A stretch of DNA of 64,000 bases from Cantharellus purpuraceus (taxonomy: Eukaryota; Basidiomycota; Agaricomycetes; Cantharellales; Hydnaceae): NCBI GenBank assembly GCA_025174535.1, contig JALBUN010000048.1, positions 434,001 to 498,000 of the forward strand, read 5' to 3'. The position numbers and the translations under genes were made by a program. Each line of letters starts with the position of its first letter. The stretch's first letter is position 1. Shown here piece by piece: positions 2,011 through 34,423 of the stretch. The notes below the pieces were generated by a model. It was not told where the DNA came from, did no database searches, and worked only from the letters and a program-made list of their open reading frames with translations.

Positions 2011-4400
2011 ATGGACGCAGCTACAATAAGTAGCTTTGCACCGTTGAACTATGCTGGAGAGTCGTGGCAGATGATTGGTATATCGAACTGGGTGGCGACG
2101 TACCTGGGGATTACAACTCCTTTTCCATCGTTTGTATCCAATCCGTTGATATGGGATACCCTCAAGCTCCTTGTATTGGGCTCTGTCTTCAGCACCGGGC
2201 GTAAATGGTTTTGGTGGCTCATTAATCGGTTTAGAATACGTATGTATGATCACAGGTAGGGTCAGAAGATCAGCCCTCTGACTCAAGTGGCATCCATATA
2301 GGCCGGTATGTTGCTGCAGGGTTCAATGCGAATGATCCGACCTACCACTGGCTCGTCGCGTACATGGTGGAGCCCCTCTCTCATTGATGAAGTATTGTGA
2401 ATTTACTTCCCTTCATTTCAGAGAGATGCAAAAGTTTGGAATACGCCTCGCGAATATATTGTTGAAATGAAGTCCTCGCAGCGAAAGTGGAAAGAAGAGA
2501 ATCACGCCGTCGCAGACGGACAAGTGGATTACATCCCACTGTACGATTCTGTGCAATTCTTCCGCTGGAAAGGATATGTTTTCGAGGTGGCCCAATACCA
2601 ATCGCGAGAAGATCAGAGAAATGGTTATGATGATAACTATGGCAATGCTTCTGTTGAACCGGGCACTGGTCACCTGTATTTAACGTAAGGTGGGGAACCT
2701 GATCTTATTCGATGCTTACACCCCATCCAAGGATTCACACACGGAAGGCATCGGTGCTCTTCTCATTTGTGGAGGAGTGCCGTTCGAAATATGCTGAGGC
2801 TACGTGCGTTCCTGTTCGAATTTGGTTTTCAGATTCATATAGGACCATTTCCCCCTAGAAAACCCCACGTTATAGTGCATTCTATTGGGGTGAGCGTGGT
2901 ACGGTAAACATTTAACTGACATGAACTATAATCCCGTGGCAGGGAATTCGTAGAAGAAGAGGTCATGATGACGGAGTTTGGGGGTCCGCAAAGACCAAGC
3001 ATCGCAGACCACTGGATTCTTTGTTACTCGATGGCGGTAAGATTGACTCCCTTTTGGCGGATGCTCGTGAGTTCCTGGGGGTCGAGGACTGGTGGGTTTG
3101 AAAAGTCGTCTGTGTAGACGAATAGCTTGGAAATAGTACGACTTCAGGTACATTCAAGCTGGGATCCCTCATCGCAGAGGCTATTTGCTACACGGACCTC
3201 CTGGCACTGGAAAAAGTCAGTTACATCACTTAATGACTCATGGAGGCTGAATGCATCTGACCTTGCTAGCTTCGACTGTGTACACCGTTGTGCGTTTCGC
3301 TTCTTCACCACAATGTCCTAGAAAAGTAAAGACGTATGTTCAGGCAGGAGAATTAGGACTGGAGATATATTCCCTCTCACTCTCGTCAGCTGCGTGCGTA
3401 AGGCTCCAGCTTCTCAACCTTTGGCACTGACTTGCACTGTCATCAGTATGGATGATAATCAGCTGTCTGTTGCTGTCTCTCTAATTCCCCCTGGTGGTAT
3501 ACTTCTTATTGAGGATATTGATTGTGCATTCCCGTCACGAGATGACGAAGAGGATGACGATGGACTTCCGCAGTCTGGATCATTACATTACCCTCGATCG
3601 CAAATCACCCTATCTGGCTTATTGAATGTGCTTGATGGTATTGGTTCTGGTACGCATGGCAACATCGCTACGAATTATTCGAGCACTCATGTTCTATTCT
3701 AGAGGAAGGCAGGTTATTTTTTGCTACGGTGATAATTTATTCCGCAGCGATATCACAAAGTACATACAATCACTTACATTTTTATCAGACAAACCACATT
3801 GACCGCTTGGATCCGGCACTCCTCAGACCAGGACGTATTGATCGTAAAATTGAATACAAGCTAGCCTGCCGGCAGCAGGCTCGTTCTCTGTTCACGCGCT
3901 TCTTCCCAGCTGCTCGTTTCCAAATGCGTTCAGATAATACCAAACCCGAAAACGGCACATACCTCAAAATGCAATTTGTGTCCAACACAGAGGAGCTAGC
4001 AGACTCATTCGTACATGCGGTCCCAGAGCACGAGTTTAGCGTTGCAGAGCTCCAAGGGTATCTTCTTGAATGGAAGATGAAGCCACTCGATGCTGTGCGT
4101 GGTATCGAACAATGGGTTGAAGGGGAACGTACGATGAGGCGTGAGAGGGTGGCTCGGGAGAGATGGCGGAAGCAGCGCATTGCAGCGGCAAAAGCGAGAG
4201 AACAAGTACAACTCAGTTCAGCTGTGATTGCAGGCATCGGAAACGCAATGGCTAAAGGTAACATGTATGGCCAGCCTCCACCCCCTGTCCCTTTCTCACC
4301 ATCGTCTGATGTCCCGTCGCCAAAAATTGGCCAAGCTGTCCCTCCAATCCCGGCTTGGCAGGCGGGCCGAAAGAAACCACAGAGGACAATGTCGATATAA
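2011..4400 (+). CDS. BCS1-like AAA ATPase, copy 1
   Basis: Twelve exons by hand: 2011-2239, 2302-2366, 2422-2684, 2732-2803, 2859-2889, 2943-3091, 3148-3215, 3270-3289, 3344-3393, 3447-3649, 3703-3728, 3789-4400; the frame closes at 595 residues. The start is the ATG at 2011 in a GCCATGG context. Seen: one hydrophobic segment near residues 40-60, a BCS1-type N-terminal region, Walker A GPPGTGK (about 286-292), Walker B ILLIEDID (about 334-341), the second region FFATTNH and the arginine stretch RPGRID, then a charged coiled coil and a proline-rich tail. In yeast BCS1 is an inner mitochondrial membrane heptamer that translocates the Rieske protein of complex III. Agaricomycetes carry many BCS1-like genes and this one need not be the orthologue. 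Its closest relatives in the window are the three other copies. Confidence 0.9.
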
Positions 4401-4838
4401 TCTTGCAACATAGCGTCCAATGACGTGCATTGCATGCTATAAACATATATACACACGCCAGATCCAGACGTTCAGTCGTGTAGCAATTGAAAACCCGTGC
4501 TATTTACTATGTCAAGTAAATGGCACAGACGCCGCGAGATCCAAACCGTATAGGACAGGCTGTTGCCACACGCTCCATGGACCCTGTGCCCTCACGACAC
4601 TTTGCCAGATATGCACAACAGGTTGACATCAATCGGAAGGTTTGTTCAAGTAGGGTGGATCAAAACTGATGCACGAATTATTCATTAGCCTGAAGAACCT
4701 AGACTGTCTAGTATTTCCAGGTACTCTGTAGGTATGCTGGACGTGTGAGATACGAAAAAAAATTGTCCAAGGAAAATTTTTCGTTGTAGACGACGGTGAT
4801 CGGAGATGGATAGGATGGATGCAAATACATCGTGTGTA
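4401..4838. other. Convergent 3' spacer
   Basis: Spacer between the convergent BCS1-like copy 1 and phosphoglucomutase genes, holding both 3' UTRs. Around 4755-4785 there is an imperfect A/T-rich inverted repeat that could belong to the phosphoglucomutase 3' end. Nothing else is recognised. Confidence 0.45.
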
Positions 4839-6768
<1,930 letters not shown>

Positions 6769-7892: not shown

Positions 7893-10311
7893 TCATTGGA
7901 TGACCTCTGGAGCACTTGACACCGGACTTGTTGGGGGCGAATCAAGAACTCCATTTGTGACTGCATCATCAGGACCTTCTCCTGAAGTTGTAGAGGGAGA
8001 GACAGTCCCGGAGTCAGCTTTCGACGGCGGCGGCGGCTGCTTATTCGATGACGGGGGCGTCGTAAAAGCAGTGATCTGACCTTGAGCCATCGCGCTACCA
8101 ATGCCCGCAATCACAGCTGAGCTGACTTGTAATTGTTGCTGCACCTTTGCGACTGTAACTCGCTCCTTGCGTTCTGTCTCGCGAGCCTCCCTTTCCCGTC
8201 TCAACTTGCGTTCGGCTTCTATCCATTCTTCGACGCCTTGGACAGCGTCAAGAGGTTTCATCTTCCAGTCGAGAAGATACCCTTGAAGCTCTGCAACACT
8301 AAACTCGTGTTCTGGGATCTTGTGTGCAAATTCATCCGCCAGTTTGTCCGTGTTCGGTGCATATTGCACCTCGAATTGCTTACCCATCTTACGGTTGGAG
8401 GTTTCGGCAAAGCGGGCTGCAGGAAAGAAGCGACTATACAAAGCACGAGCCTGCTGTTGACTGGCTAGTTTATACTCGATTTTGCGATCGATGCGGCCCG
8501 GTCTTAAGAGTGCCGGGTCAAGGCGATCGATGTGATTTGTCTGAGGGTGAAAGATGGGAATAAGTAAACTGACCCCCAAGACAGCGTCAGCTATATAAAA
8601 TCTGACCGTAGCAAAGAATATCTTTCCTTCCTCTAGAGATACGCTGTTAAATTGAACTAAAACGTAGCTGTTTGTTACATACCTGAGCCAATGCCGTCGA
8701 GCACATTGAGCAAACCTGAAAGAGTAATCTGGGACCGCTGGTAGACTCTTTTCCCACGATGCCTCGGTACTGGAGAATAGAATGCTCCCTCCATCTCTTG
8801 TTCCTCGTCTCGCGAGGGGAAAGCACAATCAATATCCTCTATGAGCAGTATGCCTCGAGGAGGAAGACGTGAAACAGTCATTTCCAACTGGTTGTCATCC
8901 AATCTGAGCATATGTAGATCAGTACTAGGTCTGAGGGATGAACGTTCATACACGTGCCCCGCGCAGGAGAGAGAGAGGGAGAATATTTCTAATCCCAATT
9001 CTCCTGCCTAAACAACCGCTCTGTTCAGAAATCTTGATGAGGAGCAGTGCGAGACGTACAATTGTATACACAGTTGAAGCTACAATGAATCGTGAAGGCT
9101 ATCTCATGATCCGCCAACGATACGACAGAACGTACTTTTACCCGTGCCTGGAGGTCCATGTAGCAAATATCCCCTGCGATGTGGAATCCCAGCCTTGAGG
9201 TACCTGTAAATCCTCTTAACACCGCCGTTCAACTATCGAGTGTGTAAACTCGCCAGTCTTCGAGCTCGAGGAACTCGCGAGAGTCTGATAAAAGTGAGTC
9301 AATATTATTTCCATCTAGTAGAAGTGAATCCAGTGGTCGGCGGTGTTTGGTCTTCACAGGGCCCCATCGTCCCGGTGCTCCATCTTCATAACCTCCCCTT
9401 CCCTGTCACCAGACTTCAGGCGCAGCCAAAGGAAAGCATAATGGCCAGCTTACCGCTACGGAATGTACAATGACATGCTGTCTCCTAAGAATTGACATCA
9501 TCAGAGCCAACGAAACGAGTTCTGTGAATGTGACGCACGTAGTTTGTGTGTACCTTAGACGACACTCTTCCACAAAAGAGTATAACACGGAAGGGTCAAG
9601 TGTGTAAATTCTATAGGGGGAGAGGCGTATCATCATCAACAAGGTCTGAATGGAAATCAATGCTTAAGCCCGTACGTCAGAAACAGGGAAGTTGAGCCAG
9701 GCATTTGTGGTGGACCATAAGGGTTAACTGGTTCGTCCACAGAATTATTTCTTGGTGGCGCTCGTGTCACTTCACATATGTATCCCTTCCACCGGAAGAA
9801 CTGCATAGAGCCATGGACTGGTACGTAGTCCACATTATTGTGCTCGGGGCCGGTCTCCATCTTCCACTTCCGCTGTGACGACGCTATCTCGACCAAAAAA
9901 TCCCGCGGCTTCCGCCACACCTTTTCTTTTGTCTAAAAAGAATTCACACATGATTTATAGCTCTATGAAAAGCAACGCTTTACCAGGTATGAGACAAGCC
10001 ATTCGTAGGTAGGGTTGCCTGGCCTAAATTCGGCAGAGATGGAATATCCTATGAGCAATGTAAGGCAAGTTACATAGATGCGTTTACAAGAACAACACAC
10101 GAATCTTGAACCGATCAACGACCCATCGAAATAACCTTCGCCCAGTCTCGACAACAGAACCCAGTACGAGAAGCTTAATGCTATCCCAGAGGAATGGATT
10201 TGACAGCAACCCCGGGAAAGTCGTCGACGCGCCAGCTAAAGCGACTATCCAGTTCACCATTCCAATCCAAGACGTGTCTTGAGCAAATGGGGTACCATTC
10301 ACAGTGGCCAT
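7893..10311 (-). CDS. BCS1-like AAA ATPase, copy 2
   Basis: Twelve exons on the minus strand: 10101-10311, 9984-10048, 9676-9932, 9539-9610, 9454-9484, 9254-9402, 9136-9203, 9060-9079, 8958-9007, 8683-8903, 8607-8632, 7893-8540; 605 residues. Seen: the N-terminal hydrophobic segment, Walker A GPPGTGK, Walker [22 protein letters not shown] and a charged coiled-coil tail ending in a P/S-rich region. Two introns (9204-9253 and 8904-8957) must use GC donors (GCGAGT and GCACGT), because the conserved exon lengths of 149 and 50 nt and the reading frame allow no GT site; the paralogues have GT there. This is the only copy on the minus strand. The function is inferred from the family as for copy 1. 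Confidence 0.88.
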
Positions 10312-11378: not shown

Positions 11379-12873
11379 CTACTCAGTACTCTCAAAGCGC
11401 CAGTACCTTGATGGCAGAGAAAGAGAGAGGGGTGTGCGTTCGAGATATGGCGGTGGTCGCGAACTTTGTTCGGAAGTTGGAGAGCAGGACGAGAGTGACC
11501 GAAGGAGAGACTGGTTCGCTAATGCATTGATCCCTACTTTGCGTTCTTCATGCCCAGGGTCTTGCAGGGCAGGCCGGTCGGCTGAGAATGGGTGGCGCAA
11601 ATTGGGAAACAAAGATTCTCCACATCGGGGACTTGGTAATGGCGTGGGTGCCATGCTATTCGGGACAGAAGTAGCAGTGCCGAATGGAAGATGTGGTGGT
11701 GATATAGATGGAAATCTGTTCTCGCCGTAAGTCCGAGCTATAGGTGACATATGAGTCCAAGCCCTCGTTGCTGTGCGTCTCAACAAAGTCGATGGAGACA
11801 GCGGGTTATCACCGGGAGAATCACAGGTGTGGTTACTCATCAACTCTGATCCTGATCCGAAACGGTTTCGAAGGCGGATGAAGTCCGGGCGAGTCCGGGC
11901 TATTGTATCGCTTGCGAACTATGATAACATCGTTTTATTTTGTCAGCTTAAACATCATTACGGGTGACAGGGAGTGATAGGAAGAGGATGAGGGGAGGTG
12001 ACAGAATGAGTACCCACATAGCCAGCCATGCAAGTGGTACGATGTCGACGCCACACATGCAAAGCCTGGTTTTGTTGGAGCTCGACATCAATCCAAGCAA
12101 GGCAAAGCGCACATTTTATGCGTTGCGACTCGATTGACGCTACGAGAGGGTCAGTCTTCAGTGTGCCGTATAAGTGTGTCTCCGCGCCTAGGTGCGGGAG
12201 TGAAAATGAAGTCAACCCAGATCCCAGAGAAATGGACGGACGTAGTGCCCTACGAACAGCCATGAGCGTTTAGTGAACCACCAACTAAACGTAAAGCGCA
12301 CATTTGACATGTAGACTTATGCTGGGTCCAACAGGATAGGCCATAAGGTCGACCCTTGCGCAGTCTCACCACCCCGTTGCACTTACCGCACACCACTCGA
12401 TCAGGTTCGACCACCTTGGCATCTTCATCTGCATCGAGAACAGCCTTGCGTTCAGTTAGACTAAGAGACTTTGCCCTGGGAGGGGGGCTGAAGCCGCATT
12501 CAGATCAGCTATATGCGGTGTTTCGCGAAATTAGCAAGAGTACATACTCCGTACGTGCACGGTCACAGCGCCATCTGTGGTCGAGCCAATGTGCCAGATG
12601 ATAGCTTTTACCCTTCTGGAGACGCACAATTTTTGCACAATGTGTGCAGGTAACCTGCTCGGGTTGTACATCTCGCGCGTATGGATCCTCGAGGAGGAGC
12701 TGCCGGCGCCCCTCTGTTGTTGATGCTGAGCTCTTTGATCTCAGATGGTCAGCATAAGGTGCATATCCTGATATTATGCGCGGGTTTGTAGAGGGGCCCG
12801 TTCTTTGGAAATTGCGCAACTCAATATACTGATTTAGTATGCATTTTCGATACAGAACTCACGTTCGGGGCAT
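11379..12873 (-). CDS. Protein with three C-x2-C-x16-W-x2-H-x3-C modules
   Basis: Five exons by hand: 12863-12873 (MPRT), 12548-12802, 12302-12487, 12014-12249 and 11379-11899; the frame closes at about 402 residues. Exons 2, 3 and 4 each carry one module: CTHC...W-LD-H-RWR-C, CGKC...W-TQ-H-KST-C and CALC...W-RR-H-RTT-C, each with exactly 16 residues between the second Cys and the Trp. Each module is preceded by an acidic stretch and a P-x2-V/I-like turn. The spacing suggests a zinc-binding C2HC finger; binding of DNA, RNA or protein is not shown. The last exon is S/P/R-rich and its 5' splice pair is the least certain. Introns between modules are phase 2. Same module family as the gene at 20683-26178. 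Function unknown. Confidence 0.7.
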
Positions 12874-13054
12874 TTGGCTTACGGGAGGAGTGCTTAGAGT
12901 AAGAGAGGCAACATGATTATGATACTTATACGAAAACATAAACAGACATCCTGGTTGGAAGCTGCGGGCCGATAATTCCCCATATACGTCACGTGATTTA
13001 GAACATGCTTTTGATGTACTTCGCGTCGACCCCATGTTGCTGTTCACTGAGTCT

Positions 13055-14326
13055 ATGTTCGCAGTCGCGTGTGTTCTGATATTGACTGCGTTAGGAACGG
13101 TGAGTCGTCTGTCTTGGACGAGACATTGCTAGTTTTCTATGATGAGCATATGATCATCCTTGTTCTAAGAGCCATAGGCCTTCTTCACTTGCGAGTTCTA
13201 GCATGCGCTGTGGCTGCGACGACAATGCTAGGCATGGCCTTGCCTTTTCTGACTTTACTCTTATCATCCGTTCTTCCCGCTTGGGCTAAAGCTAATGTTG
13301 AGCAACTATGTTAGATATATCTCGTTATTATTATTGTCTCACCACACCTCCTTGTTGCAAGCCCTACAGAGAAACAATATATCTGTGCGAAATCCCCATC
13401 ACATGGTTTACCTCTTCCAACGCTATCCGATTTGGCATCGCTATCCCTGTCGGTGGTCATCCCCGCCTATAATGAGGCTGAGCGGCTTACACCCATGCTA
13501 GAGGCCACATTGACTCATCTCATCTCAAATACATCTCGCACGTATGAGCTCATTATTGTCGACGATGGGTCGAAAGATGCAACCGTTTCCCTTGCTCTCT
13601 CCATTGCAGAGGCACATGCTGGCGTAGACATCCGTATCGTAAAAATGGACAAGAACGTTGGCAAGGGTGGCGCAGTGAAGCATGGGTTCATGCACGCACG
13701 TGGAGAACGCATACTGATGGTTGATGCGGATGGGGCAAGCCGGTTTGAGGATTTGGAAAAGTTGTGGAAAGAAATGGACCTGGTAGAAAGAGACGGGTAT
13801 GCGGTGGCTATTGGAAGTCGAGCGCACTTAGTTAAGACAGAGGCTGTGGTGAAGGTGTGCACTGGTTGATACGTTCCTCAGCCCACATTCTCTTAAATGA
13901 GGTTATCCAACAGCGATCCGCGGTGCGGAATTTCCTGATGCACGGTTTTCATTTCGTATTACGGACAGTGGGCGTTGGACACATTCGGGACACACAATGC
14001 GGATTCAAAGTGAATTGACTCCTGAACATTTCAGTGTACTCGCGTTTTACTGACAAGCCACTTAGCTCTTTTCTCGCAGAGCAGCACAGCGACTATTTCC
14101 ATACCAACACCTTACAACGTGGGTTTTCGACGTTGAGCTCCTCATCATGTCCCAGCTACTCGATATACCTGTAGTGGAGGTACCGATAGCATGGAATGAG
14201 GTAGCAGGGAGCAAGCTATCTCTCATGTCAGACTCAGTTGGCATGCTCAAGGATTTGCTTGTCCTTCGAGCAAACTATGCACTGGGAAGGTGGTCAGTTA
14301 ATCGAGAGAAGATGAAAAATGATTAA
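13055..14326 (+). CDS. ALG5: Dolichyl-phosphate beta-glucosyltransferase
   Basis: Four exons: 13055-13099, 13315-13854, 13914-14009, 14066-14326, closing at 313 residues. ALG5 transfers glucose from UDP-glucose to dolichyl phosphate at the ER membrane, supplying the donor for the last steps of N-glycan precursor assembly. Seen: an N-terminal membrane anchor (about residues 2-28), then a GT2 catalytic domain with SVVIPAYNE, DDGSKD, the nucleotide-binding NVGKGGAVKHG, the metal site DADGASRF, and the family signatures AIGSRAH, RDTQCGFK and VFDVELL. The first exon and its 215-nt intron are inferred from frame, donor GTGAGT and the hydrophobic anchor; the other junctions are secure. It lies between the Cys/His gene and BCS1-like copy 3. 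Confidence 0.93.
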
Positions 14327-15033
14327 GTGGTTTATCTTAAGCATATCTGTGTGTATTCACTGCACACCGTATTTTGATCAAGATACCGCATGAGAGATAC
14401 TTGCATTTAATCGAGGGGCACCTAAATGCCTTCAAATATTATCTAGATATCTCTTCTGCGTTATGCGACTGATTGTCCGACATGTCAATCTAATGTTGCC
14501 AGAATTATATGGTGTTCGCACCTCGGAGCATCGAAGCGAGAGCTCTGGCACGCTGCCGAATCGGAGATGGACCCTGCAGTTTTATCTACTGTAACGCCCC
14601 CATTACGTTTGTTTTGGCTCCTAATTGAAGGATCGAAACTTTTCCGAGAAGGCGTAATCAGTACAGGAGTGCCTCCCATGTATGTATTACTGTCACTGAA
14701 CCTTTTGCCTTGGTATTATTTCCTTCCCGTGAGTGTGGGAATATTGGATTGGGGATTCTTTAGTCTCTAGTCACGGAAACTGAAGCTAGCAACTAGCGCA
14801 GATTAATGGTGGCGCAATCATGGCCCTGGATTCGTGAAGACTTCCTTATAGAATCTAATAGTCCTATAAAACGCCACAAACCGGTAACATCAATCGGACT
14901 CTAAAGCTGTGCACGGCATGGATGACAAGTTGGTGCCCGGCGAAAAGCCCTTGGCCAAAGCGTTTGGCGCACGCCCTTAGATAACCAGTTGGCACAGACC
15001 TCAATATCCTTTCCACTAGTCTCCGCCGCCACC
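14327..15033. other. Intergenic, no gene seen
   Basis: About 700 bases between ALG5 and BCS1-like copy 3. Short ORFs (for example 14567-14770 +, hydrophobic) have no supporting signal. The promoter of copy 3 should lie at the right end. Confidence 0.5.
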
Positions 15034-17455
15034 ATGAATTGGACGAGGTTACCCAGAAATGAGCCACCCTGGTCGAGCACACTCAGTTGGGTGGCCGCGC
15101 TCATGGGTGCTTCGAGTGGCGCTGCCGCCATGTCTTCTAGTCCGCTGGTCATTGATGGCCTCAAAATACTTGTGCTCGGTTCCGTCATTGAGACAGGAAG
15201 GAGGATGTTTCAATGGATAGTAGATCGATTCGAATTCCGTGAGTCGACTGCTCTTTCTCATGGTGAATTTTCATACTTATTGCAAGACAGGCTATGCGGT
15301 CTCTGCTGAGTTCCAGGGTGGCGATAGTTCTTATGAATGGCTTGTGAACTATCTGGTGAGAGGGTTCCCGCATAGCCGGTGCTTCGTGCGCTCTTGTGAC
15401 ATTTCCTGAAGCGACCTCATAGATGACAGAACAAGTTTGGCAAACGCCACGCACTATCTACGTCAAATCCAAAAATTCACAGAGGAAGTGGAAGATTCCG
15501 AGTGATGCTGAGAATGGACAAGTAGACTATGTTCCAAACTTTGGAGCTGTTCAATTTTTTCGCTGGAAAGGATACTGGCTGGATGTCAGTAGATTGCAGG
15601 CAGGTGTCCCCTATGAGCCACACATGGGAGAATTCGACCAAATATTGCCTGATGGCCCGCCACCGAGTGCATCAATATCACTGAGGTCAGTAATGTTCAG
15701 AATTGAGGCATTTAGTCCCCTAATGTCTCAACTATTTTAGCATTTACACTCGTGATATGTCTGTGCTCTTTGAATTCGTAGAGGAATGTCGCTTGAAATA
15801 TCTTGAGAATACGTGAGCTACATAGTTATTGTCACCAGCATTCACTCACGGCATTATAGCAAATCCGATATCATGATCTACACCATTGATCAAGTGAGTA
15901 TGTTCTCTATCAAGTCAGATAGTGTTTCCAACCCCCACACCAGGCGCCCCGTTATGGTGACGAGGAGTGTTGGACCAGCGTGAAGACGAAACGCCGTCGT
16001 TCCTTAGACACCCTCTTACTTGATGAAGGCGTGATTGAGTCGCTTCTGGCAGACGCCCGCGAGTTTATGAGGACGGAGGATTGGTGAGTGAAACGCTCCA
16101 AATATGCCGAAAGTTGTCATAAGGCTTGACCTAGGTATATCCGGACTGGTATTCCCCACCGTCGAGGTTATCTACTATATGGTGCTCCTGGAACAGGAAA
16201 GAGTGAGTGGTTCTCACTTCTTACTTGGTATCATGAAACTTTACCACTCTTCTCAGCCTCTACAGTATACACTATGGTGAGTTCTGAGCCTCGCTACCTA
16301 TGTCCTGTCTGAATATTCGTTCTGCAGGCGGGAGAACTGGGATTAGAGATCTATGCGCTCTCTCTTTCAGCCAGCGGGTATGTGTCTTCACCGTCCAATA
16401 ATATCCATCCATTTCCTACAGCTGTTTCACAATTTGTAGGATGGATGACGATGGTCTGGCTCGGACTGTGTCGTCTCTTCCTCCGAAAGCAATTCTTCTT
16501 ATCGAGGATATCGATTGCGCGTTTCCATCAAGAGAGGAATTGGATGAACAGATCCGTCAATCACAATATGCATCCTATCAGCTCCCGAGGTCACAAGTCA
16601 CGTTATCTGGTCTATTAAATGTACTGGACGGAATCGGCTCAGGTGATGTAACCCTTGCGGTCGGCTGGCAAAGACGGTCAGACTAATTCACAGAACGTCT
16701 TTAGATGAGGGGAAGCTGTTCTTCGCAACGGTAAATCAATGCTTGCTGGGGGTTATTCAGACTGACATGTTTTCAACATGAAGACTAATCACATCGACCG
16801 CCTCGACCAGGCACTTGTGAGACCGGGTCGAATTGACCGCAAGATTGAATATAAGCTAGCCAGTCGAAGGCAGGCTCATAGATTATTCATGAGATTTTAC
16901 CCAATATTCAAGCCTGGGGTTCCGTCATCGAGCCATTCAGAAGCTAAAGAACTCTCAAAAGTGCCTGAAATGGCCGAGGAGTTTGCGCGCGCTATTCCTG
17001 AGAACACATTTAGCATGGCGGAGCTCCAGGGGTATCTTCTAGAATGGAAGCAGGATCCCATTGGCGCTCTACATGCCATTGGTGCATGGGTTGAGGGCGA
17101 ACGAGTTGCCCGACAGGAGAGGGCTGCACGTGAGCAACTTCGCAGGGAGAAGGCAGTAGCAGCAAAAATGCAACAGCACCATACCACTTATGAACCAACG
17201 ATTGCTAGAGTGGGGAGCGGGACTTCCATGAAGTCTGGACCTCAGTCAAAAGTGGCTCGCCCGTCTGCAACCTCATCTGAAATCACTTCCGATGTGGATT
17301 CCGATCCTGAAACACAATCATTTGATACCAAGAATACCTGCCACAAACAGACTATTTCCCTTGGCCCCAGCAAGGTCATCAAGGCTGCGAATGGTGTCCA
17401 AGTTTCGCCCCAGTCGGATTCGCCAACTGTGGTATCAGATGCTGTTGTTTCTTGA
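15034..17455 (+). CDS. BCS1-like AAA ATPase, copy 3
   Basis: Twelve exons: 15034-15238, 15291-15355, 15423-15685, 15741-15812, 15860-15893, 15944-16083, 16135-16202, 16257-16276, 16328-16377, 16440-16642, 16705-16730, 16784-17455; 605 residues. The ATG at 15034 sits in a GCCACCATG context. Walker A reads GAPGTGK where the other copies have GPPGTGK. Walker B ILLIEDID is intact. The second arginine stretch is preceded by LDQALVRPGRID, where the other copies have [13 protein letters not shown] charged coiled coil follows, then an S/T-rich tail. All splice sites are GT-AG. It is in tandem with copy 4, only 346 bp apart. Confidence 0.9.
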
Positions 17456-17801
17456 AACATTGCTAGACAGGATAGATGGGCTCGAGCTCTGTCAGATACT
17501 TGGCTCTTTCATGCGCAAGTCGATAGATGTAATGCTCTGAGTTCGGTCGCAGGTAGAGTATGACCATGTACATGTAACTACATAGAGCAAATTTGGATTG
17601 ACAAGAACTGAAGACATCGTCAAGCTTTGGTGCCAGGCGAGAAACACCGCTTTGGGGCTATTTCTTATAATATTTCGCGTTTCTGGGGTTATAGAATTAA
17701 GTGTGTGTGCGTGAGCAGTCGGAATAGTGAAATGCTGTGCCGTGCCACCCCCGTTTTGGTTATAGCACGCTAAGCGAGGAAGCCACTCCTCTGCCTCTGC
17801 T
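17456..17801. other. Spacer between tandem BCS1-like genes
   Basis: 346 bases separating copy 3 from copy 4. It must contain the terminator of one and the promoter of the other. No ORF or element is recognised. Confidence 0.5.
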
Positions 17802-20125
17802 ATGAATGGGTTGTCATGGAAAAACGTAGCTTCTCTCATAGACATACCGACGAGTTTTCCTCCTTTGCTTGCTAGATCTGTTTTTTGGGATGGACTCAGA
17901 CTGCTTGTACTAGGCTCTGTCATTGAGACCGCGCGTAGAGTATTCATCTGGATCATCGACAGGTTTAGACTTCGTATGTTGCTTTCAGGTCATAGCCTGT
18001 AAACACCTACATAATTAACCATAATACACAGGCTGGTCCACTACTGCGGAATTTGAGGCCGGTGACGTTACCCAAGAATGGATCATCAATTACTTGGTAA
18101 GGCTTTCCCTTGAAACGAGTTTTTAAATCAAATAATGCTCGACTCTCGCTCTGCTGGCTACAGATCCAAGAAAGGGTGTGGCGAACACCACGCAATATAT
18201 TCGTCAAGACGAAGAACAACAAGCGAAAGTGGAGGCTTCAAACCAGTACCAAGTACGATCAAGTAGATTTCATTCCACAATATGGATTTGTGCAGTTCTT
18301 TCGTTGGCGAGGACATTTGTTCGAAGTCAGTAGCCAAAAGGACAAACCTCGCCACCCGTCACATTACGCTAGAAGATACGATTCTATGCATTCGGAGAGT
18401 CCTACACATTCTAACTCTATCGCCTTGACGTCAGTCATTCGTACAAGATTTTCGGCTCTCTATAGCGTCTTCTAATCTCTTTATAGAATCTTCACTCTCA
18501 ACAGGTCTGTTCTATACGCGTTCGTGGAGGAATGTCGGTTGAAGTATGCGGATCATACGTGAGTAAATAGAAACAGCACTATTCTCCCTTGGATTGAAGT
18601 CTTCTAGTAAATCTGAAGTTACCTTGTACACTGCGAGTGTGGTAGGTGTCCGTTACATGAACACTTAACTTGTCTCTTGATTTCTCGCTAGTATCATGGG
18701 GGAGGGTCCATATGGAACGATGTCAAAATGATGCGTCGCCGACAACTGGACTCCCTCCTTCTAGATAAAGATGTCATTGGTTCCCTTCTTAAAGATGCCC
18801 GGGAATTCCTGGATGTGGAAGATTGGTTCGTGAACAAATATGGGGTAAGAGTAGCACAACTAACTTGCGATGTTCTACAGGTATATCAGTGCAGGGATCC
18901 CGCATCGCCGAGGTTACTTGCTTTATGGGCCTCCTGGAACCGGGAAAAGTAAGTAGTTGGTTCTTCCCATATGCAGGCTACACCTCACCTCCTCATCAAG
19001 CTTCAACTATATACACCATAGTGAGTCGCCTATCGTGTGAGTCTCGATGGCAAGTGATGTCAAGCAAACAACTCTGCAGGCCGGAGAGTTGGGGCTAGAG
19101 ATCTACGCTCTCTCTTTATCGTCCAAGTCGTATGTATTCTCGTGGGTTGTATTACTTCTTTGGTCAACCTGGGTGCCTTCTAGGTTGGATGATGCTTCTC
19201 TGGCCCATTTGGTCTCGCTTCTCCCTCCCCGGGGAATCCTCGTCCTTGAAGACATCGACTGTGCATTTCCGTCCAGGGTTGACAGCGATGAAGACGATTT
19301 CAAAGCCAAACAGTTGTTTTCACTGACAGTTTCTCGGACATCACAAGTCACCATGTCTGGATTGTTAAATGTCTTGGATGGAGTTGGTTCAGGTGAGTAT
19401 TTCTTGTGCGGTTAGAGTGGTTTGATTCAGGCTGACGGCGAGATCAACTTAGAGGAAGGCAAAATATTCTTTGCAACCGTAAGTCCCCCCTATCCTTCCT
19501 CTCTCAATGCTCATTATCTTTTTTACAGACCAACCATATTGACCGTCTCGATCCTGCGCTTCTGAGACCAGGAAGAATTGATCGCAAGATAGAGTATCGA
19601 CTTGCCAGCCCACAGCAGGCTCGCGGCTTGTTCTTGCGCTTCTTTCCCAGCTCTAACACTGCGATATTGTTCGAGACGTCTGATGAACACGCAGATGCCA
19701 AAGGACAAGATATGTCGCAACTGGCGGATGAATTCGCAACAGCCATTCCTCCTTACGAATTCAGCATGGCAGAGCTTCAAGGTTATCTCCTCGATCATAG
19801 GGTAGATCCCCTGGAAGCCTTGCGTGACATCCAAGTATGGGTAGAGAACGAACGTCAAGACAAACGGGACAGAGAGGTCCGTGAGCAGTTGCAGAGAGAG
19901 CAAAAGGCAGCAGCACAAGCTCAGGAGCAGTGGCTTAGCTATGGTGCAATGGCTGGGGGATTTCCGACAGCGATGTCTCAGCTACCAACGCCGATGCCGT
20001 ACTATCCAGGGTACGGTACATATCAACCTCCCACTCAATTTACTCCGACCATAAATGCAGAACCTATCCAGGAAATAGCACAGAATGTAGGGAGTCCTCC
20101 AATTGCGGAACATGAAAGTTCATGA
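17802..20125 (+). CDS. BCS1-like AAA ATPase, copy 4
   Basis: Twelve exons: 17802-17973, 18032-18096, 18164-18429, 18487-18558, 18608-18641, 18692-18825, 18881-18948, 19001-19020, 19080-19129, 19184-19392, 19453-19478, 19529-20125; 570 residues. The N-terminus before the hydrophobic segment is about ten residues shorter than in the other copies. Walker A is GPPGTGK, Walker B ILVLEDID, then FFATTNH and RPGRID. The C-terminal tail is rich in P, Y, T and Q. The exon plan is identical to the other copies, with small length differences only in exons 1, 3, 6, 10 and 12. Its function is inferred from the family only. Confidence 0.9.
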
Positions 20126-20682
20126 CACATGTAGCTGTGAATTATGTGCACCTTGTCTGTGTGTAGGATACTTTCTCGGAAATTGTGTAGATTATATTGT
20201 TTTCAGGAAGCTTCGTTACCATAAAACCAGGACCTGAGGCCGTATATACATTGGAGGAATTATCTTCATCATTCGGCATTATAATAGGCCTGGATTTACA
20301 TAACTCAGGTCAACCAATCACGTGGGAGAGCATGTGGGCCAGCGCTCTGGCGTACTCAATTTTTTTGCGCTGTGACAGCCCACAGTAAGCGCTTAAGCAC
20401 CTTGGTCATGATAACGAAACGCTTCAGTTATTCGACTAATCCTTCTTTTATTACATGCAATGGCGCGTACACGAACTCGGATGCACACTGTCGTGAATTA
20501 TGTAACAGATAAGGAAAGAACAAAACATCTATAATAAAAACTCTACAACCGATAGCAAATGAAAACAAAGCAAGCTGATGTCCTATGAACAGCAGAAATT
20601 ATACAGAAAATCTTGTCAGATCGGTATCACCGCAAGAGCGCGATGGAATTAGTCGCAGAGAACCGTGCTGGTACTTCAAATG
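20126..20682. other. Convergent 3' spacer
   Basis: About 560 bases between the 3' ends of BCS1-like copy 4 (+) and the eleven-module Cys/His gene (-). A/T-rich; holds both 3' UTRs. No gene recognised. Confidence 0.5.
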
Positions 20683-23600
20683 TCAATCCACCGCCTCCAT
20701 GGCGTCGATCCCAAGCTTACAGATGCGCACCTTGCCGTCTGTAGTGAGTGTCGTGAATGGCGCCGGTCGCCGGCGGAAGAAGGCATCAAATTCTGTCTCC
20801 TCCTCCCGCGTTCTCTTGCGTGGCACCCAGGACTCTGCGTCAGGCGATGGTGACGACCTCGGGGTGGGTGGTGCCTCCGAAACCTCCATGGAATCATCGT
20901 CGTCGCTGTCTTGTCGCAGACTTTTTGTGGCAGGTCGGCCTTCCGATGCCATGCCATTGCTGGCTGATTCAATGACGCTGGTGAGGCGACCTGAAGCGAC
21001 GAGCTCCGCGGCAATCATCTTCAGGTGGGCAGCATTTTCCGCTTCAATGCGTGCCTTTGCAGCCGCAACAGAAGCTGCCGTTGGGGAAGGGCGAACCACA
21101 CGTGAGCGCCGCTTGAACATATGTGTGGGATTGATCACCAGAGGCGTCGTGAAGAACGAGGTGGGACGTGGTCGAGGGGCAGAAGAAGCGTCCGAATCAT
21201 CCGAGTCACTCGAGTCAGTGATTGCTACACGGTCGTGGACCTGATCAGGGCTCTCGAGCAGGAGTTGGAGGTCCTCCCGACCATGCGCTTCAGCTGCTCT
21301 GCGCTTTTTGGACATTCGTTCCTGAAATGGAATCATCGGACAGCGGGAGCGATGGGCTCGCCAGTGCGATCCCTCGTACTTGTATGTCGTATCCAGGCGT
21401 ATATACGTGCCACAGGCTTTGCATGTCACACGATGAGGATTAACATCCGTGGCATAAGCGTCGTCGTCAAGCACTTGTTTACGGGCATCCTCCTTCTCGC
21501 TCTTAGCTCGAATTTTAGCGTCTCCGGGACTGGGGATTTAGTCATAAAACACATCAATAAGAGAGTAGATGATAAACCGCACACTATGAGTTCGATATCC
21601 TGGCATGAAGCCTTGTGCTGTGGCCATACGCTCTGAGCATACCGGATGATGGGGTGTAGCCTAATCCAACAGCTACAATGCTTGCACAATAAGCGGTGGG
21701 GTTCGATTTTCTCGACGTCTGGATCATCAAGGAACTGCTGCTTCCTTTCATCCTCACTGGGCCACCTTGGTCGTGGGGGCAAGGGTGGCAGCATCGTCGG
21801 AGAAGGTGCCCGCCTGAAGTTGGTTCCTTTACCTTTGCCCTTCGGAAATGGGCGTATGGGTCGATTGGTAGACGTATTCGTACGTGGGGTGTGGGCAGGC
21901 ATCGCATCTATCGATCGACTAGCAGGTTCTCCAGCATTGACCACTCGTGAATGCAAAGGCCTGCCGACAGAATAAATGATACATGGCGATAGCAAGGACA
22001 CAAGGAGGATGCTTACTTGTCAAGCTGCCTATTATGGCAAATGTCTACATGCGCGACCCACGACTCGAACATATACGGCTCGGGACCTTCTAATGTGACG
22101 CGATTCTCACACCGCCTACAGATAACAGACTGCGGCTTCACTTCAAGAACATCCATGTCCATCAGGAATTTAATTCGCCGAGTTGCTCCATCGGTTTGGG
22201 CAGGCGTCGTATCTGGCACTCGTGACTGCACAGGCCTGCCGACCGAATGAATGATTAACGTCAATGGCAAAGACAAAAAGAGGATGCTTACTTGACAATT
22301 TTCTTGGGGCAAATCTCCTTATGCGTGAGCCACGACTCCAACATATACGGCTCGGAACCCTCTAATGTGATGCGATTCATGCATCGCCAACAGACAACAC
22401 ACCGTGGCTCCACTTGACAAATATCCTCGTCCTCCATTAACTTAAGGTGCCGATGCTTCGCTCCATTGGTTTGAGCAGGCATCACATCTAGTGATCGAAT
22501 AGCAGGTTTTCCAGCGTCAACCACCCGTGACCGCAAAGGCCTGCCGACCGAATGAATGATTCATGCCAATGGCAATGACAAAAGGAGGATGCTTACTCGT
22601 CAATCTGCTTACGGCAAATTTCTTTATGCGTGAGCCATGACTCGATCGTATACGGCTCTGGACCCTCTAATGTGACGCGATTCTCGCATTGCCGACAGAT
22701 AACAGACTGCGGCTCCACTTCAAGAGCATCCAAGTCCATCAGCAATTCAATTCGCCGACGCTCTACTCCGGCTTCTACTTTAGCCTCTCTGAAGAGTAAC
22801 TGTTTAGCTTCTAGGTGCAGTGGACAAGTGTAAACTAACGTTTGCTGTTCAAAATCGTTTGCACATTCGCCGTGCGAGGGCCTAGCACAATAAAATGAGC
22901 TGGACTGAGATCGCTGTGAATTGAACGTGGAATGATAGTCACGTACTGGTCGAGCTGATTCTCAGACATTTCAACATCGCCGTCTTTATCTTCAGCACAT
23001 GATGAGAAACGCGGTCCTTCCTTTATGAAGCTCAGGGAGCTACACGGACAAGGCGGGTCAGATAAGCATGGAAGAAGGGACAGGGGATAAGGAGTGTACC
23101 TTTCTTCGTTGTCAGGCGCACTTGCTTCAGGGGGTTTTGCGTCGAGCACTTCCTTCTCGTTTGTATTACTAGGCTCGCCCTGCAGGACATCTTCTACATC
23201 CATTGCTTCTTGATCATCGTCTAGCTCGTCAGACTCGTCGTCTGCCTCATTAGCTTCGACACTGTTCCTTTGGGGAAGATGACTATGTCAGTAGCAAAAA
23301 TGCTCATCGATCAGCAGTACGCACTGCATCTCCATCCGCGCGTTGGATCCACACCGTCTCTGATGTCCCACCCACTTCCCTAGACTGTAGGCGTAATCTT
23401 GACGCAACCCCACCCAAGTATTACATACTGCGCAACGAATGCGGTGCGGTTCCACTTCGGCAGCATCTGGATCTTCCGCGAGGGTCTTCTTGCGAGCCTC
23501 AAGAGCAGCCAAAAGCCTCTTAGGAGAACTTCCAGCCATTCATAAGTTTCATAATAAGAGAATACAGGGAAGAACTCACTCGATTGTCTGTCCAGGGCAG

Positions 23601-26178
23601 GACTCTTTGTGAGTAAGCCAATGGCTTGGACTGTACTCCACTGGCAGAGACAGTTTGATCCAACGACCGCATGGTCGACATTGAACTCTATCAGGGAAGA
23701 GTTGCAGGATGTCTGGATCGGCAACAAGTATTGCCCGGCGGGATTCAGACGTGGTAGAAGGTGGAGGAACTTTGTGATTTGATCGCCTTGAATTTAAACA
23801 TCAATTCGTTGTGTCAACACGACAGAAAGTCCCAATACATACTTTTCAGTTCCAGACGCTGCAGGAGACTCTGTTGTCTCGTGCTGGGCTGTCCCACTCC
23901 TGGCTTGTGCGAGACACTTTCGCTTATGTTGCACCCAATGGCTAGCGGAGTACCGGCTTCGGCTACACAATTTGACCCACTGGCCACGCGAATGAGTGAC
24001 TCGTTGTAAATAAACCGTATTACTACGAAGCACCTTTACCTTATTGCAGATGCCGCAGAGGGCCCTGTGTGGCTCAAGAATGTTGACAGTCAGGTCGGCC
24101 TCCAGATGAGCTTTCCGCGCTTCAGCCGGCTCGGAAAAGCGATCGGTCACATCAGTCCTGAGACGCCTGCATTTGCGCTTGTGCTTGAGCCAGTGGTGTG
24201 CTGAATACTCCTGGGAGTTGCTGCCTTTGATCCAACGCTCACAGAGACCACATTTGACGCGACGAGGTTCTACGATAGCTGCATCTGGATCAGCCATCAT
24301 CGCTTCACGTCTTTGCTCAAGTGCCATGAGCGCAGACCTGAAGTGCAAGATGAGTATATATACGGTGTAAACAGAGAGATAGTTGAACGTGAGATTGGAC
24401 TGACGATTTGGATGGCGAAGCATGGCTAGCCAAAGACCCTTTCTGAGCATCGCCCTCACTGCTATCTGTCAACACTGGCATATCATCGCTCTCTAAGAGG
24501 CTGACTTGAGAGCTCGTCGACTCAGGCAGAGGATCCGATGACAAGGGTTTGAGTAACCCAAGACCTTCCTTTGCGAAGGCCTCCCGAGCGAATGGCCATG
24601 TCTCCGTAGGAGGAGAATCTAGTTTGCGGGGGAGCAGTGACGAAAAGGGAATCTGAGAGTCTGTGCGAGGGCCATGGTCTTGTGGAGTGACAGGATCGTC
24701 AATCTGGTCTGTTGGGGAGGCAAAGCCGTTGTTGGGTTCTACCTTCAAGATGGAAGGCGTCACTAAAGGCGGTGTGAGTTCGGTATGTTCTCTCGTTACT
24801 GATGTGTTGTCCACCACAGGTCTATTGTCTGGAGGAGCATCTGGAACCAGGGGAGGGCCCATATCTTCGTGAGAGTGTTCGCTGGCCGTGTCGTAATCGT
24901 CTTCGCCATTGATGGACTGGAGGCGGTTGCTAGAGTAAGATGCGTGAGCCTTATCGTGAGCGGAGTAGTAAAGACAAAGAAAGAGATGGGCTCGTTCTGG
25001 GATACTGACGCCAGATGTTGGGTGACACTTACTGTTTTTCTGTTTTTCTCAAGTGTCCTTTCCATACGCCGTAGCTGTACGGGGTTCGAGAAGAGAGATC
25101 CACCCAGCGATCGCACAATATGCAGAACGCGCGAAACGGCTCTAAGTCCCCAATGTAAGGCTCAGCGACGAGCGCTTTATAGCTTGCTTTGCGGTGAGGC
25201 GAGAGTCGCTCCAACGAATGTATTGTCGCCCGTGCTGCCGATGGGGATTCCCCGCAATCCTTGCTAGATGTGGAGGTAGAGAGCACATGGGTAGAGTGGT
25301 TTAGTGCACTGGATATCTGAGAGGAGACTAGATGCTGGGTGGGTGACCCCGAGGAATTAGAATGCGCGTCTAGTGGAGCAGCTCTATCGGAAACCAAAGG
25401 TATTGGTGGCGGTGGCGGTGGAGGTGGCGGTGGCGGTGGCATCGACTCGTGCGATATCTGTGACTGACCGCTTTCTGGTTGAGGTAGGTCGATGATCTGG
25501 GAATCGATCCCATGTAATCTACTTGACACTCTCCTATTTGCCACTCGTGGTGGAAGAGGATGAGCAACTGTTCGAGCATTTGAAATTACGGGCGGATGGT
25601 CGCTCTCACGACCTGTCTGAGGCGGGATGGGACCGCTGAGCCTGCCATATACGTCTAGTAAGCATATACGACTGTGCAAGGTATGAATGAATCTATTACA
25701 GGGACGGTAGTGGTCCTGCTGGAGCTGAAGAAGACGAGGTCTCGTCAGCGCGCTGCTGGGAATTGTCTGCAGAGTGCGTATCTTGAGAGGACGATGCTGT
25801 CAGTGAGTTGTTCCCTCCACCTGTGGACCGAGAGGAGAGCGAGGCAGCGCTGGCTTTCCTTTGCTCAGAGGGACCCACCACCTTCCCATCGAGTATCAGA
25901 TGGGGAGTTGGGGCAGACAAGTTGAGCGGTCGGGAATTGCTAATGAAGGGACTCAGTATTGGGTCGAGAAGGAACACACTAGATTATGATACTAGTATCG
26001 TGTATACTTACTGCGACTTGGTGGCCTTGTGGCACCTCCAGACGGAGGCAGCGAAGAGCTTAGTCTCATCTAGTTTGAGCCACTTGTCACAGCGATTACA
26101 GAAGACGCGGTGAGGCTCTACCGCGGAGACATCTACGTCATCGAGTAGCATCTGCTGCCGTTCCTCAAGCGTGGCCAT
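20683..26178 (-). CDS. Large protein with eleven C-x2-C-x16-W-x2-H-x3-C modules
   Basis: Fifteen exons by hand: 26012-26178, 25700-25978, 25033-25641, 24405-24929, 24040-24337, 23843-23979, 23580-23786, 23325-23528, 23100-23267, 22840-23039, 22597-22810, 22292-22540, 22017-22235, 21583-21960, 20683-21529. Every phase matches and the frame closes at about 1,566 residues. Eleven modules, typically preceded by D-P-D-x-x-x-V-E-P-H-R-V, have exactly 16 residues between the second Cys and the Trp. Modules 1 and 2 lack the last Cys; module 4 is completed only after removing a 60-nt intron. Between them lie a polyproline run (about 25410-25440), acidic linkers and S/P-rich stretches. The last exon has basic clusters (KKRRAAE, PRKRTREEE), suggesting a nuclear protein. 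The C2HC spacing suggests zinc binding. I do not recognise the family. It could be two genes (an in-frame ATG exists at 23539), but phase continuity favours one. Confidence 0.72.
21961..22810 (-). repeat. Tandem duplication of one module exon with its intron
   Basis: Three consecutive module exons (22597-22810, 22292-22540, 22017-22235) are close copies, sharing long identical runs around the C-x2-C and W-x2-H parts. The three introns that follow them (22541-22596, 22236-22291, 21961-22016) are each exactly 56 nt, all starting GTAAGCATCCTC and ending GTCGGCAG, with only scattered differences. Flanking phases are 2-2 for the last two exons, so each copy adds a module without breaking frame. 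This shows recent unequal exchange within the gene. Confidence 0.85.
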
Positions 26179-32947: not shown

Positions 32948-34423
32948 ATGCCAGCTCCTCTCGCCCACATTCTCAACCCTGTCGATGTCAGTCCGTACCA
33001 GGCCGCGGGTCAGTCTGTGAACACCGAAGGGCAAGGGCCTGGCGAGACAACAGCCTCCCTCGTCTCTAACAAACGTGTGCCCAAAGCATGTACCCAATGC
33101 CGTCGTAGCAAGTCTCGATGTGATAAGGCTAGGCCGTGCTATTCCTGTGTGCGGAAGGGGCGAAGCGATACATGCATTGACGGATGTGTGGCTTGCAGAC
33201 AGGCCAGACTAAGGTGGGGTCCTTCGATTTATTTCCTGGCTTTGTGAGACATGGAAATCGCTGACATGTGGTCGATTAGTTGTGATGAGACTCGCCCCTG
33301 CAATTCTTGCATTCAATTTGGGTGTACGTGCATTGAAGACGACCTTACCATCATTGCCACACGCAAAAAACAGAAGCTTCCTCCCTCTATGCTACTTGCA
33401 CCCCGGAAAATCAGACCTCAGCCTCGCATCAAGATTTCTACAACACAGCCTCATACCGAACTGGAATGCATCTCTTGCCAGAGACACAACGAGAAGTGCA
33501 CAGGCGGTCTTACCTGTCATCGTTGCGAGGAGCTCGGAGAGCAGTGCGTGTATGGCTCCCGACTATCCATCTTCACCAAGCAGCGTTGTGCTCAGTGTCG
33601 CAAGAAAAACAAGAAGTGTGAGCGCATCCGCCCGTGCGTGCACTGTGTCAGGGCAGATGTCCCATGTGTCGATCTGCCGAGGAAAAGCATAGGGGTTGGC
33701 TTAAGGGTGAAGAGGGCATGTGCAGGGTGTCGCGCGGATAAGACTCAGTGCGAGGAGGCGTGAGTTCTCATGTCCCTGAGAATACTTCTATTGTTCGCCG
33801 CTGATCATCTCATCTATGCTAGGCGTCCGTGTGGAGCGTGCAAGAAGAAAAATATGGACTGTGTGGAGCGTGCCTGTAATACTTGCTTTATGAAAGAAAG
33901 CAAGTGCGCATATTGCACAAAGGAAGACCAAATTCATCGGGAGGAGTGTGAAAATAGCTCGACTGCTTCGTACTCGGAAGGTGATCTTGTCGTTTCCTTC
34001 CGTGTATGTCGGATCATTGACTCCACACTCACAGAGGAGAACGACAATGTCTCAAGTTTATTTTCCCCATCGTCTGCCTCATCTCAATCGTGCAATACAC
34101 TATCATTCGACCCCAATTGTGCAGGCAAACTAAAGTCACCCTTGTCGCCTCACGATGGTTCAGAATCTAGGTATGCAGTGGCGCTGAGTAAACGCTTGGA
34201 ATCCCTCCACAGGTTGCCGAGTTTCGATACTTTTGATCCCTACTACAAACATTTGAACCACTCGGCGGCGTCTCCCCGACCCCTGGATCAACATTTATCT
34301 TCGACATTACAGACTTCTAAGACCAAGCTTCCATCGTTTTCCGACGGCTTCTCCTCACCTTCACCCGCTGCATTTACAAGTCACATGCAGACGCGCCCGA
34401 GCTCTGATCGCTCAAAAGACTAA
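32948..34423 (+). CDS. Regulator-like protein with five Zn(II)2Cys6 clusters
   Basis: Three exons: 32948-33213, 33280-33759, 33823-34423; 448 residues. Five binuclear zinc clusters follow each other, each C-x2-C-x6-C-x5-C-x2-C-x(6-8)-C: Cys 48-76, 80-104 (completed across intron 1), 152-178, 192-218 and 236-262 (completed across intron 2). A further Cys-rich stretch (CNTCFMKESKCAYC) follows. Fungal Zn2Cys6 proteins are normally DNA-binding transcription factors with one cluster. Here no fungal transcription-factor middle region is visible, and the C-terminal 170 residues are S/P/T-rich and probably disordered. DNA binding is inferred from the fold class. The start is the ATG at 32948 after a CT-rich leader. 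Confidence 0.85.

Follow-up and report, generated by a model that had tools for sequence, protein, structure and literature searches.

The present analysis concerns two genes in a 64,000-nucleotide stretch of the genome of Cantharellus purpuraceus (contig JALBUN010000048.1, positions 434,001 to 498,000; the whole stretch is called the window), both of which carry several copies of a Cys/His-containing module. Gene 1 lies on the minus strand at 11379..12873 (5 exons, 393 amino acids) and has three modules, gene 2 lies on the minus strand at 20683..26178 (15 exons, 1539 amino acids with no stop among them) and has eleven (M1-M11), and both the counts and the outer coordinates agree with those given in an earlier sequence-only reading of this DNA. 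A six-frame search of the window with the strict pattern C-x2-C-x16-W-x2-H-x3-C yielded 11 matches, three in gene 1 and eight in gene 2, every one of them on the minus strand. M4 becomes the ninth strict match of gene 2 once a 60-nucleotide in-frame intron (24039-23980) is removed (24057-23914, from the first Cys to the last), so that, as that reading had maintained, exon reconstruction is needed to see all modules. M1 (first Cys at 26100) and M2 (first Cys at 25124) keep CxxC-x16-WxxH and have no Cys four residues past the His. In the spliced product this His is followed by a second one, as H-x5-H in M1 and as H-x6-H in M2, and the second His is conserved in the Sphaerobolus protein P0001 for M1 but not for M2. 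The description of fourteen invariant copies of the full pattern is therefore correct for CxxC-x16-WxxH (14 of 14 modules) and too generous for the final Cys (12 of 14).

As a control, all spacings from 4 to 30 were allowed: the window then showed 11 matches with a spacing of 16 and a single one with 19, the latter being M8 read from an earlier Cys, and the same range gave zero matches in 60 dinucleotide-preserving shuffles of the window. The spacing is not, as had been supposed, invariant in a wider sense. With spacings of 10 to 24 (a pattern that misses C-x-C variants), 62 stretches were found in 20 proteins, 55 of them with a spacing of 16, one with 13, three with 17 and three with 18, the spacings 17 and 18 thus also occurring in the wider family, which reaches Schizophyllum, Punctularia and Mycena.

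The exons of gene 1 (12873-12863, 12802-12548, 12487-12282, 12187-12018 and 11918-11379) contain strict matches at 12565..12648, 12307..12390 and 12030..12113 (minus strand, first to last Cys). Seven relatives were found in the protein database (P0002-P0008), including proteins of Ramaria, Gautieria, Hysterangium and Clathrus and two of Sphaerobolus; the closest are from Gomphales. A taxonomy look-up places Ramaria, Clathrus and Sphaerobolus in the subclass Phallomycetidae, to which Gautieria and Hysterangium presumably belong as well. Gene 1 and the Ramaria protein P0002 are identical at 221 of 387 positions, and P0002 backs three of the four exon joins, the third (12282/12187) being uncertain. 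The third module has a spacing of 13 in Gautieria P0003 and is unmatched in Sphaerobolus P0005 and P0006, which implies that it has been lost or altered in places. A local cluster of BCS1-like genes surrounds gene 1 and adjoins gene 2, with BCS1-type AAA lid frames at 3729-4397 (+), 7896-8828 (-), 16778-17452 (+) and 19628-20122 (+), and a glycosyltransferase family 2 exon at 13468-13860 (+), which we take to resemble dolichyl-phosphate glucosyltransferase, is found beside gene 1.

Gene 2 was modelled on the minus strand with exons 1-8 at 26178-26012, 25939-25700, 25641-25033, 24929-24405, 24337-24040, 23979-23843, 23786-23580 and 23528-23325, and exons 9-15 at 23261-23100, 23039-22947, 22881-22597, 22540-22292, 22235-22017, 21960-21583 and 21529-20683. 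All joins are GT-AG and 13 of the 14 introns are of phase 2. Among proteins of 0.55-1.75 times its length, Sphaerobolus alone provided a relative (P0001, 1200 residues, 9 modules as compared to 11), and no Ramaria or Gautieria counterpart was present among the matches in that range. P0001 was recovered in the protein database search (expectation value, E, 7.9e-94 for residues 541-860), and in a global alignment 547 of 1193 aligned residues are identical. The alignment is near-gapless at joins 1, 3, 5, 7 and 14 (5 of 14), which are thereby supported; it is weak at join 2 and gapped on one side of join 4.

The individual modules of gene 2 (all minus strand) share on average 32% identity with each other. 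For seven of the eleven the best match is the positional counterpart in Sphaerobolus, at 47-82% identity: M1 (26014..26178, 77%, reading WRCHKATKSH after splicing), M2 (25038..25202, 82%), M3 (24166..24330, 68%), the intron-split M4 (23911..24135, 56%), M5 (23594..23758, 47%), M10 (21600..21764, 74%) and M11 (21337..21501, 79%). This does not hold for M6-M9. M6 (23348..23512) is without a clear positional counterpart, and M7 (22611..22775), M8 (22306..22470) and M9 (22034..22198) form a tandem triplicate that arose through copying of one exon together with its phase-2 intron: the three copies include the same 56-nucleotide intron (22596-22541, 22291-22236 and 22016-21961, respectively), mutually identical at 45-51 of 56 positions. 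Each of M7-M9 has retained the two Cys, the Trp, the His and the last Cys, and their ratios of nonsynonymous to synonymous substitution (dN/dS) over 49 codons are 0.92, 0.68 and 1.26. An exon end is located 30-37 residues past the first Cys in eight of the eleven modules (M1, M2 and M5-M10), so that duplication of a module exon need not disrupt the reading frame.

Conservation was assessed in a 38-module set, from which the spacing-13 module of P0003 was excluded and of which 30 modules make up one alignment, and in a set of 55 spacing-16 modules, 54 of which make up the larger alignment (M4 being excluded because it is spliced). The invariance of the first two Cys, the spacing, the Trp and the His in the 55-module set follows from the selection pattern, which fixes them; the last Cys was found in 48 of the 55. 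Ahead of the first Cys, conserved positions include R at -19, L at -15, D at -12 (often within DPD) and VEPxRV up to the Cys itself, and from there on CxxC-x-K-W-[VI]-x-L, Y at 16, W at 21, H at 24 followed by K/R, and C at 28. The actual unit is thus not the small module spelled by the pattern; it spans some 57 residues and has a conserved helix and strand ahead of the first Cys. AlphaFold2 predicts the order helix, strand, CxxC hairpin and a helix with WxxHxxxC. For M11, modelled with 53 other modules (mean predicted local distance difference test score, pLDDT, 87.9; predicted template modelling score, pTM, 0.68), helices were placed at residues 2-14 and 46-54 and strands at 18-22, 25-28 and 34-36, and in the Ramaria relative of gene 1, modelled with six others (mean pLDDT 71.0, with residues 1-35 and 98-100 under 50), the helix-strand-hairpin-helix arrangement is seen twice, in both modules. 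The CxxC is thereby placed on the hairpin, and both the His and the last Cys are placed in the final helix. The predicted fold corresponds to a hairpin-plus-helix C2HC finger that is extended at its N-terminus by a helix and a strand, and pattern and fold together suggest that it would hold zinc. Judging from the sequences, the modules constitute a real zinc-finger-like family that is so far unplaced.

The same module is found in eighteen unnamed proteins of Agaricomycetes (P0001-P0018), with 1 to 9 copies per protein according to the variable-spacing pattern, P0001 being the counterpart of gene 2. The genome of C. purpuraceus itself contains, besides genes 1 and 2, at least two other module loci: one on the contig of gene 1, some 172 kb away from it (C48:272.8-273.3 kb), and one on another contig (C47:798 kb). 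The former has two modules (near 3916-4350 of the piece C48:269001-277500); in the latter (C47:794001-802500, minus strand) the modules appear, by eye, to be split by introns directly after VEP, and a C-x-C variant is present near the N-terminus (GRFKCGCLEWVSL), as it is in P0009-P0012 and P0017. A composite query made from these two paralogues recovered ten proteins, including those of Punctularia, two Schizophyllum and Mycena, which extends the module to Corticiales and Agaricales. Some of P0009-P0018 have AT-hook-like motifs or a winged-helix-like end, unlike genes 1 and 2: a motif with RGRP was found in five of the ten (P0010, P0011, P0012, P0016 and P0017), and similar motifs, read by eye, follow the modules in the two paralogues (KRGRGRPRKRK on C48, KKRGGRPPKN on C47). 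The best match of the cut-out ends was WH_MCM3_C, in all cases below cut-off (Schizophyllum P0014, E 1e-4; Punctularia P0013, E 0.077). A frame that lies downstream of the C48 paralogue (from 5641 of that piece), possibly outside that gene, has the same family as its best match, likewise below cut-off (E 0.003). Searching the winged-helix-like ends against PDB by sequence gave no useful match.

Elsewhere in the window we observed the C-terminal part of Phosphoglucomutase-1 (4711-5532, minus strand), a fungal Zn2Cys6 binuclear cluster domain (33251-33760, plus strand) and several Copia-type and Ty3-type retroelement frames (between 41798 and 63099).

With respect to function, the likeliest reading of the array is a multivalent nuclear scaffold for binding DNA or chromatin, built of zinc-finger modules of about 57 residues, a view that in our judgement has an even chance of being right. 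Both genes would then encode probably nuclear proteins in which, per module, the Cys pair of the CxxC hairpin and the His and Cys of the C-terminal helix would hold one zinc, with the Trp one helical turn ahead of the His, and in which basic residues next to the His and around the hairpin's second strand would create a positive core in most modules. Several such modules in one chain would allow multivalent binding to DNA or chromatin, probably in the control of transcription. This view draws, indirectly, on the basic cores (a charge of +2 to +7 in eight of the eleven modules of gene 2), the AT-hook-like motifs and perhaps the winged-helix-like end in relatives, and the finger fold. The sequence-only reading had proposed a modular reader of nucleic acid or protein; a binding role indeed appears plausible, and the AT-hook-like motifs of the relatives are consistent with the former of these targets.

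A number of observations weigh against this view. The label 'nuclear' rests on basic clusters and on relatives, and neither an AT-hook nor a winged helix was seen in gene 1 or gene 2. The Pfam AT_hook model was listed, below cut-off, in the C48 piece and in P0011 as the sole case among P0009-P0018, and whole-protein scans of P0013-P0015, open to matches of E up to 1, did not show WH_MCM3_C. Solved structures provided no confident match by sequence (best E in PDB 0.17 and 0.34) or by fold (Foldseek versus PDB and viral models: nothing at E 0.001 or better). At join 6 and joins 8-13 of gene 2 (7 of 14), P0001 is gapped or too divergent to judge the model. The distance from first Cys to first Cys in gene 2 is irregular, ranging from 65 to 282 residues, the cores of M7-M9 are acidic (-1 to -2), and the dN/dS near 1 in these same modules also fits relaxed constraint.

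Part of this evidence favors the main rival, namely that the array is a platform for protein interaction (binding histone tails, ubiquitin or partner proteins), with AT-hooks or other domains making the contact to DNA in the relatives. DNA-reading C2H2 arrays have closely packed fingers, unlike the irregularly spaced modules of gene 2, and the acidic cores of M7-M9, the separate AT-hook-like motif in some relatives and the presence of BIR and IBR/RBR chains among the weak fold matches point in the same direction. Nevertheless, the latter matches are all insignificant and the cores of gene 2 are mostly basic, and we consider such a platform unlikely, albeit to be taken seriously. A module that binds RNA and acts in RNA processing is decidedly less probable. 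Still less so is a descent of the modules from BED fingers captured from transposases and since strongly diverged: ZBED1, ZBED2 and ZBED3 chains are found among the weak fold matches of the module models and the order of Cys and His is BED-like, but zf-BED matched only 1 of 54 modules (E 0.015), the N-terminal aromatic pair is absent, and no Pfam family, transposase or other, was over cut-off in P0001-P0018. Finally, it is hardly credible that exons were wrongly joined or that the gene is decaying, for although the models were derived from sequence, 7 of 14 joins in gene 2 and 1 of 4 in gene 1 are unsupported by the compared relative, M7-M9 show the dN/dS noted above and M1 and M2 are without the last Cys, there are 1539 open codons with GT-AG joins and a nearly uniform intron phase, separately annotated relatives concur at the testable joins, and M1 and M2 rank with the best conserved modules.

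In the favored view the outer modules of gene 2 (M1-M5 and M10-M11) form a conserved frame around a fast-changing middle (M6-M9), in which the tandem copying of M7-M9 perhaps altered what the array binds. One could go further and see in gene 2 a fungal parallel, of independent origin, to the fast-evolving poly-zinc-finger proteins of animals, one in which outer modules are kept while the middle diversifies exon by exon, possibly tracking genomic targets such as retroelements; we regard this as an improbable extension. Gene 2 in any case offers an exon-by-exon record of the growth of a finger array in a fungus. More generally, unnamed proteins from no fewer than five orders or lineages of Agaricomycetes contain the domain, which reached no Pfam cut-off in the scans made and could become a profile for annotating them; if the modules do bind DNA, these proteins would be regulators of mushroom-forming fungi that have so far gone unexplored.

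The module had earlier been considered impossible to place in a named family, and this was upheld in the scans made: no Pfam family reached its cut-off in modules or proteins, and NCBIfam returned four families with one module each (best E 0.032). In the literature, no title or abstract opening that names the module was found, which is no proof of its unpublished status. Zinc ribbons, CoiA_N, DUF5817, DUF7828, zf-CW, the Trim66 B-box and others were rejected, as each matched a minority of modules and stayed below cut-off or had an E no better than 0.0029. DUF5817 and DUF7828 matched 6 of 54 modules each, and DUF5817 gave the lowest single E (0.00047, in P0003), albeit over only 23 residues around the CxxC. 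The UBZ/Rad18-type CCHC finger, with the spacing C-x2-C-x11-H-x3-C, is at odds with the 19-residue gap of the modules (PF18439, zf_UBZ, was seen below cut-off in three of eight proteins, P0005-P0007).

Classical C2H2 fingers (C-x2-4-C-x12-H-x3-5-H) likewise combine a CxxC hairpin with a helix carrying paired ligands and are repeated per protein. In all 14 modules the second Cys and the His are separated by 19 residues, versus about 12, and PF00096 was not listed among the families shown in the Pfam scans of modules and proteins; two specialised C2H2 models each appeared once below cut-off (ZN292, E 0.036; ZNF451, E 0.039). A unit of about 57 residues and irregular linkers further set the module apart from C2H2 arrays. 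BED fingers (Cx2C-xn-Hx3-5[HC], with two aromatics N-terminal to the CxxC) share with it the order of ligands and the succession of hairpin and helix, while the module differs by the Trp three residues before the His. The suggested C2HC/BED-type resemblance is valid in that the array is genuinely zinc-finger-like, and fails for membership of BED (PF02892): the matches remained below cut-off (in the smaller set, 1 of 30 modules), and among 38 modules no column between -26 and 0 showed a conserved aromatic, which leaves a weak resemblance of the predicted fold only.

Among the several families below threshold, the whole finger is best fitted by the second finger of Rua1_C (PF14616). Its matches comprise 6 of the 30 modules in the smaller set and 5 of the 54 in the larger, where DUF5817 and DUF7828 have 6 each. 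The best E was 0.0029, and the highest score, 18.3 bits, falls short of the gathering cut-off of 27. The eight module matches that reach the end of the profile stop at position 121, and in one scan four of seven modules, partly preselected as earlier matches, place their last Cys there; matches in P0003, P0012 and P0013 end earlier (119, 104 and 103). All module matches begin at profile position 60 or later, the first finger being absent. Two genes of this genome exceed the Pfam cut-off for Rua1_C (C15:859.6-860.1 kb and C23:195.2-195.6 kb). Comparison of the modules with the tails of these two gave an hhalign probability of 0.2, and a hidden Markov model search gave 5.3 bits for one tail and no match for the other, versus 14.3 bits for the best shuffled controls. 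In Ustilago maydis, cellobiose lipid synthesis is under the control of Rua1, a zinc finger transcription factor (PMC7673458). The two Rua1 genes of this genome read CxxC-x2-W[VI]xI...WxxHxxxC, the last Cys of the tail falling on profile position 121 as in those four modules, whereas their spacing is 20 and the modules correspond to the last part of the profile only.

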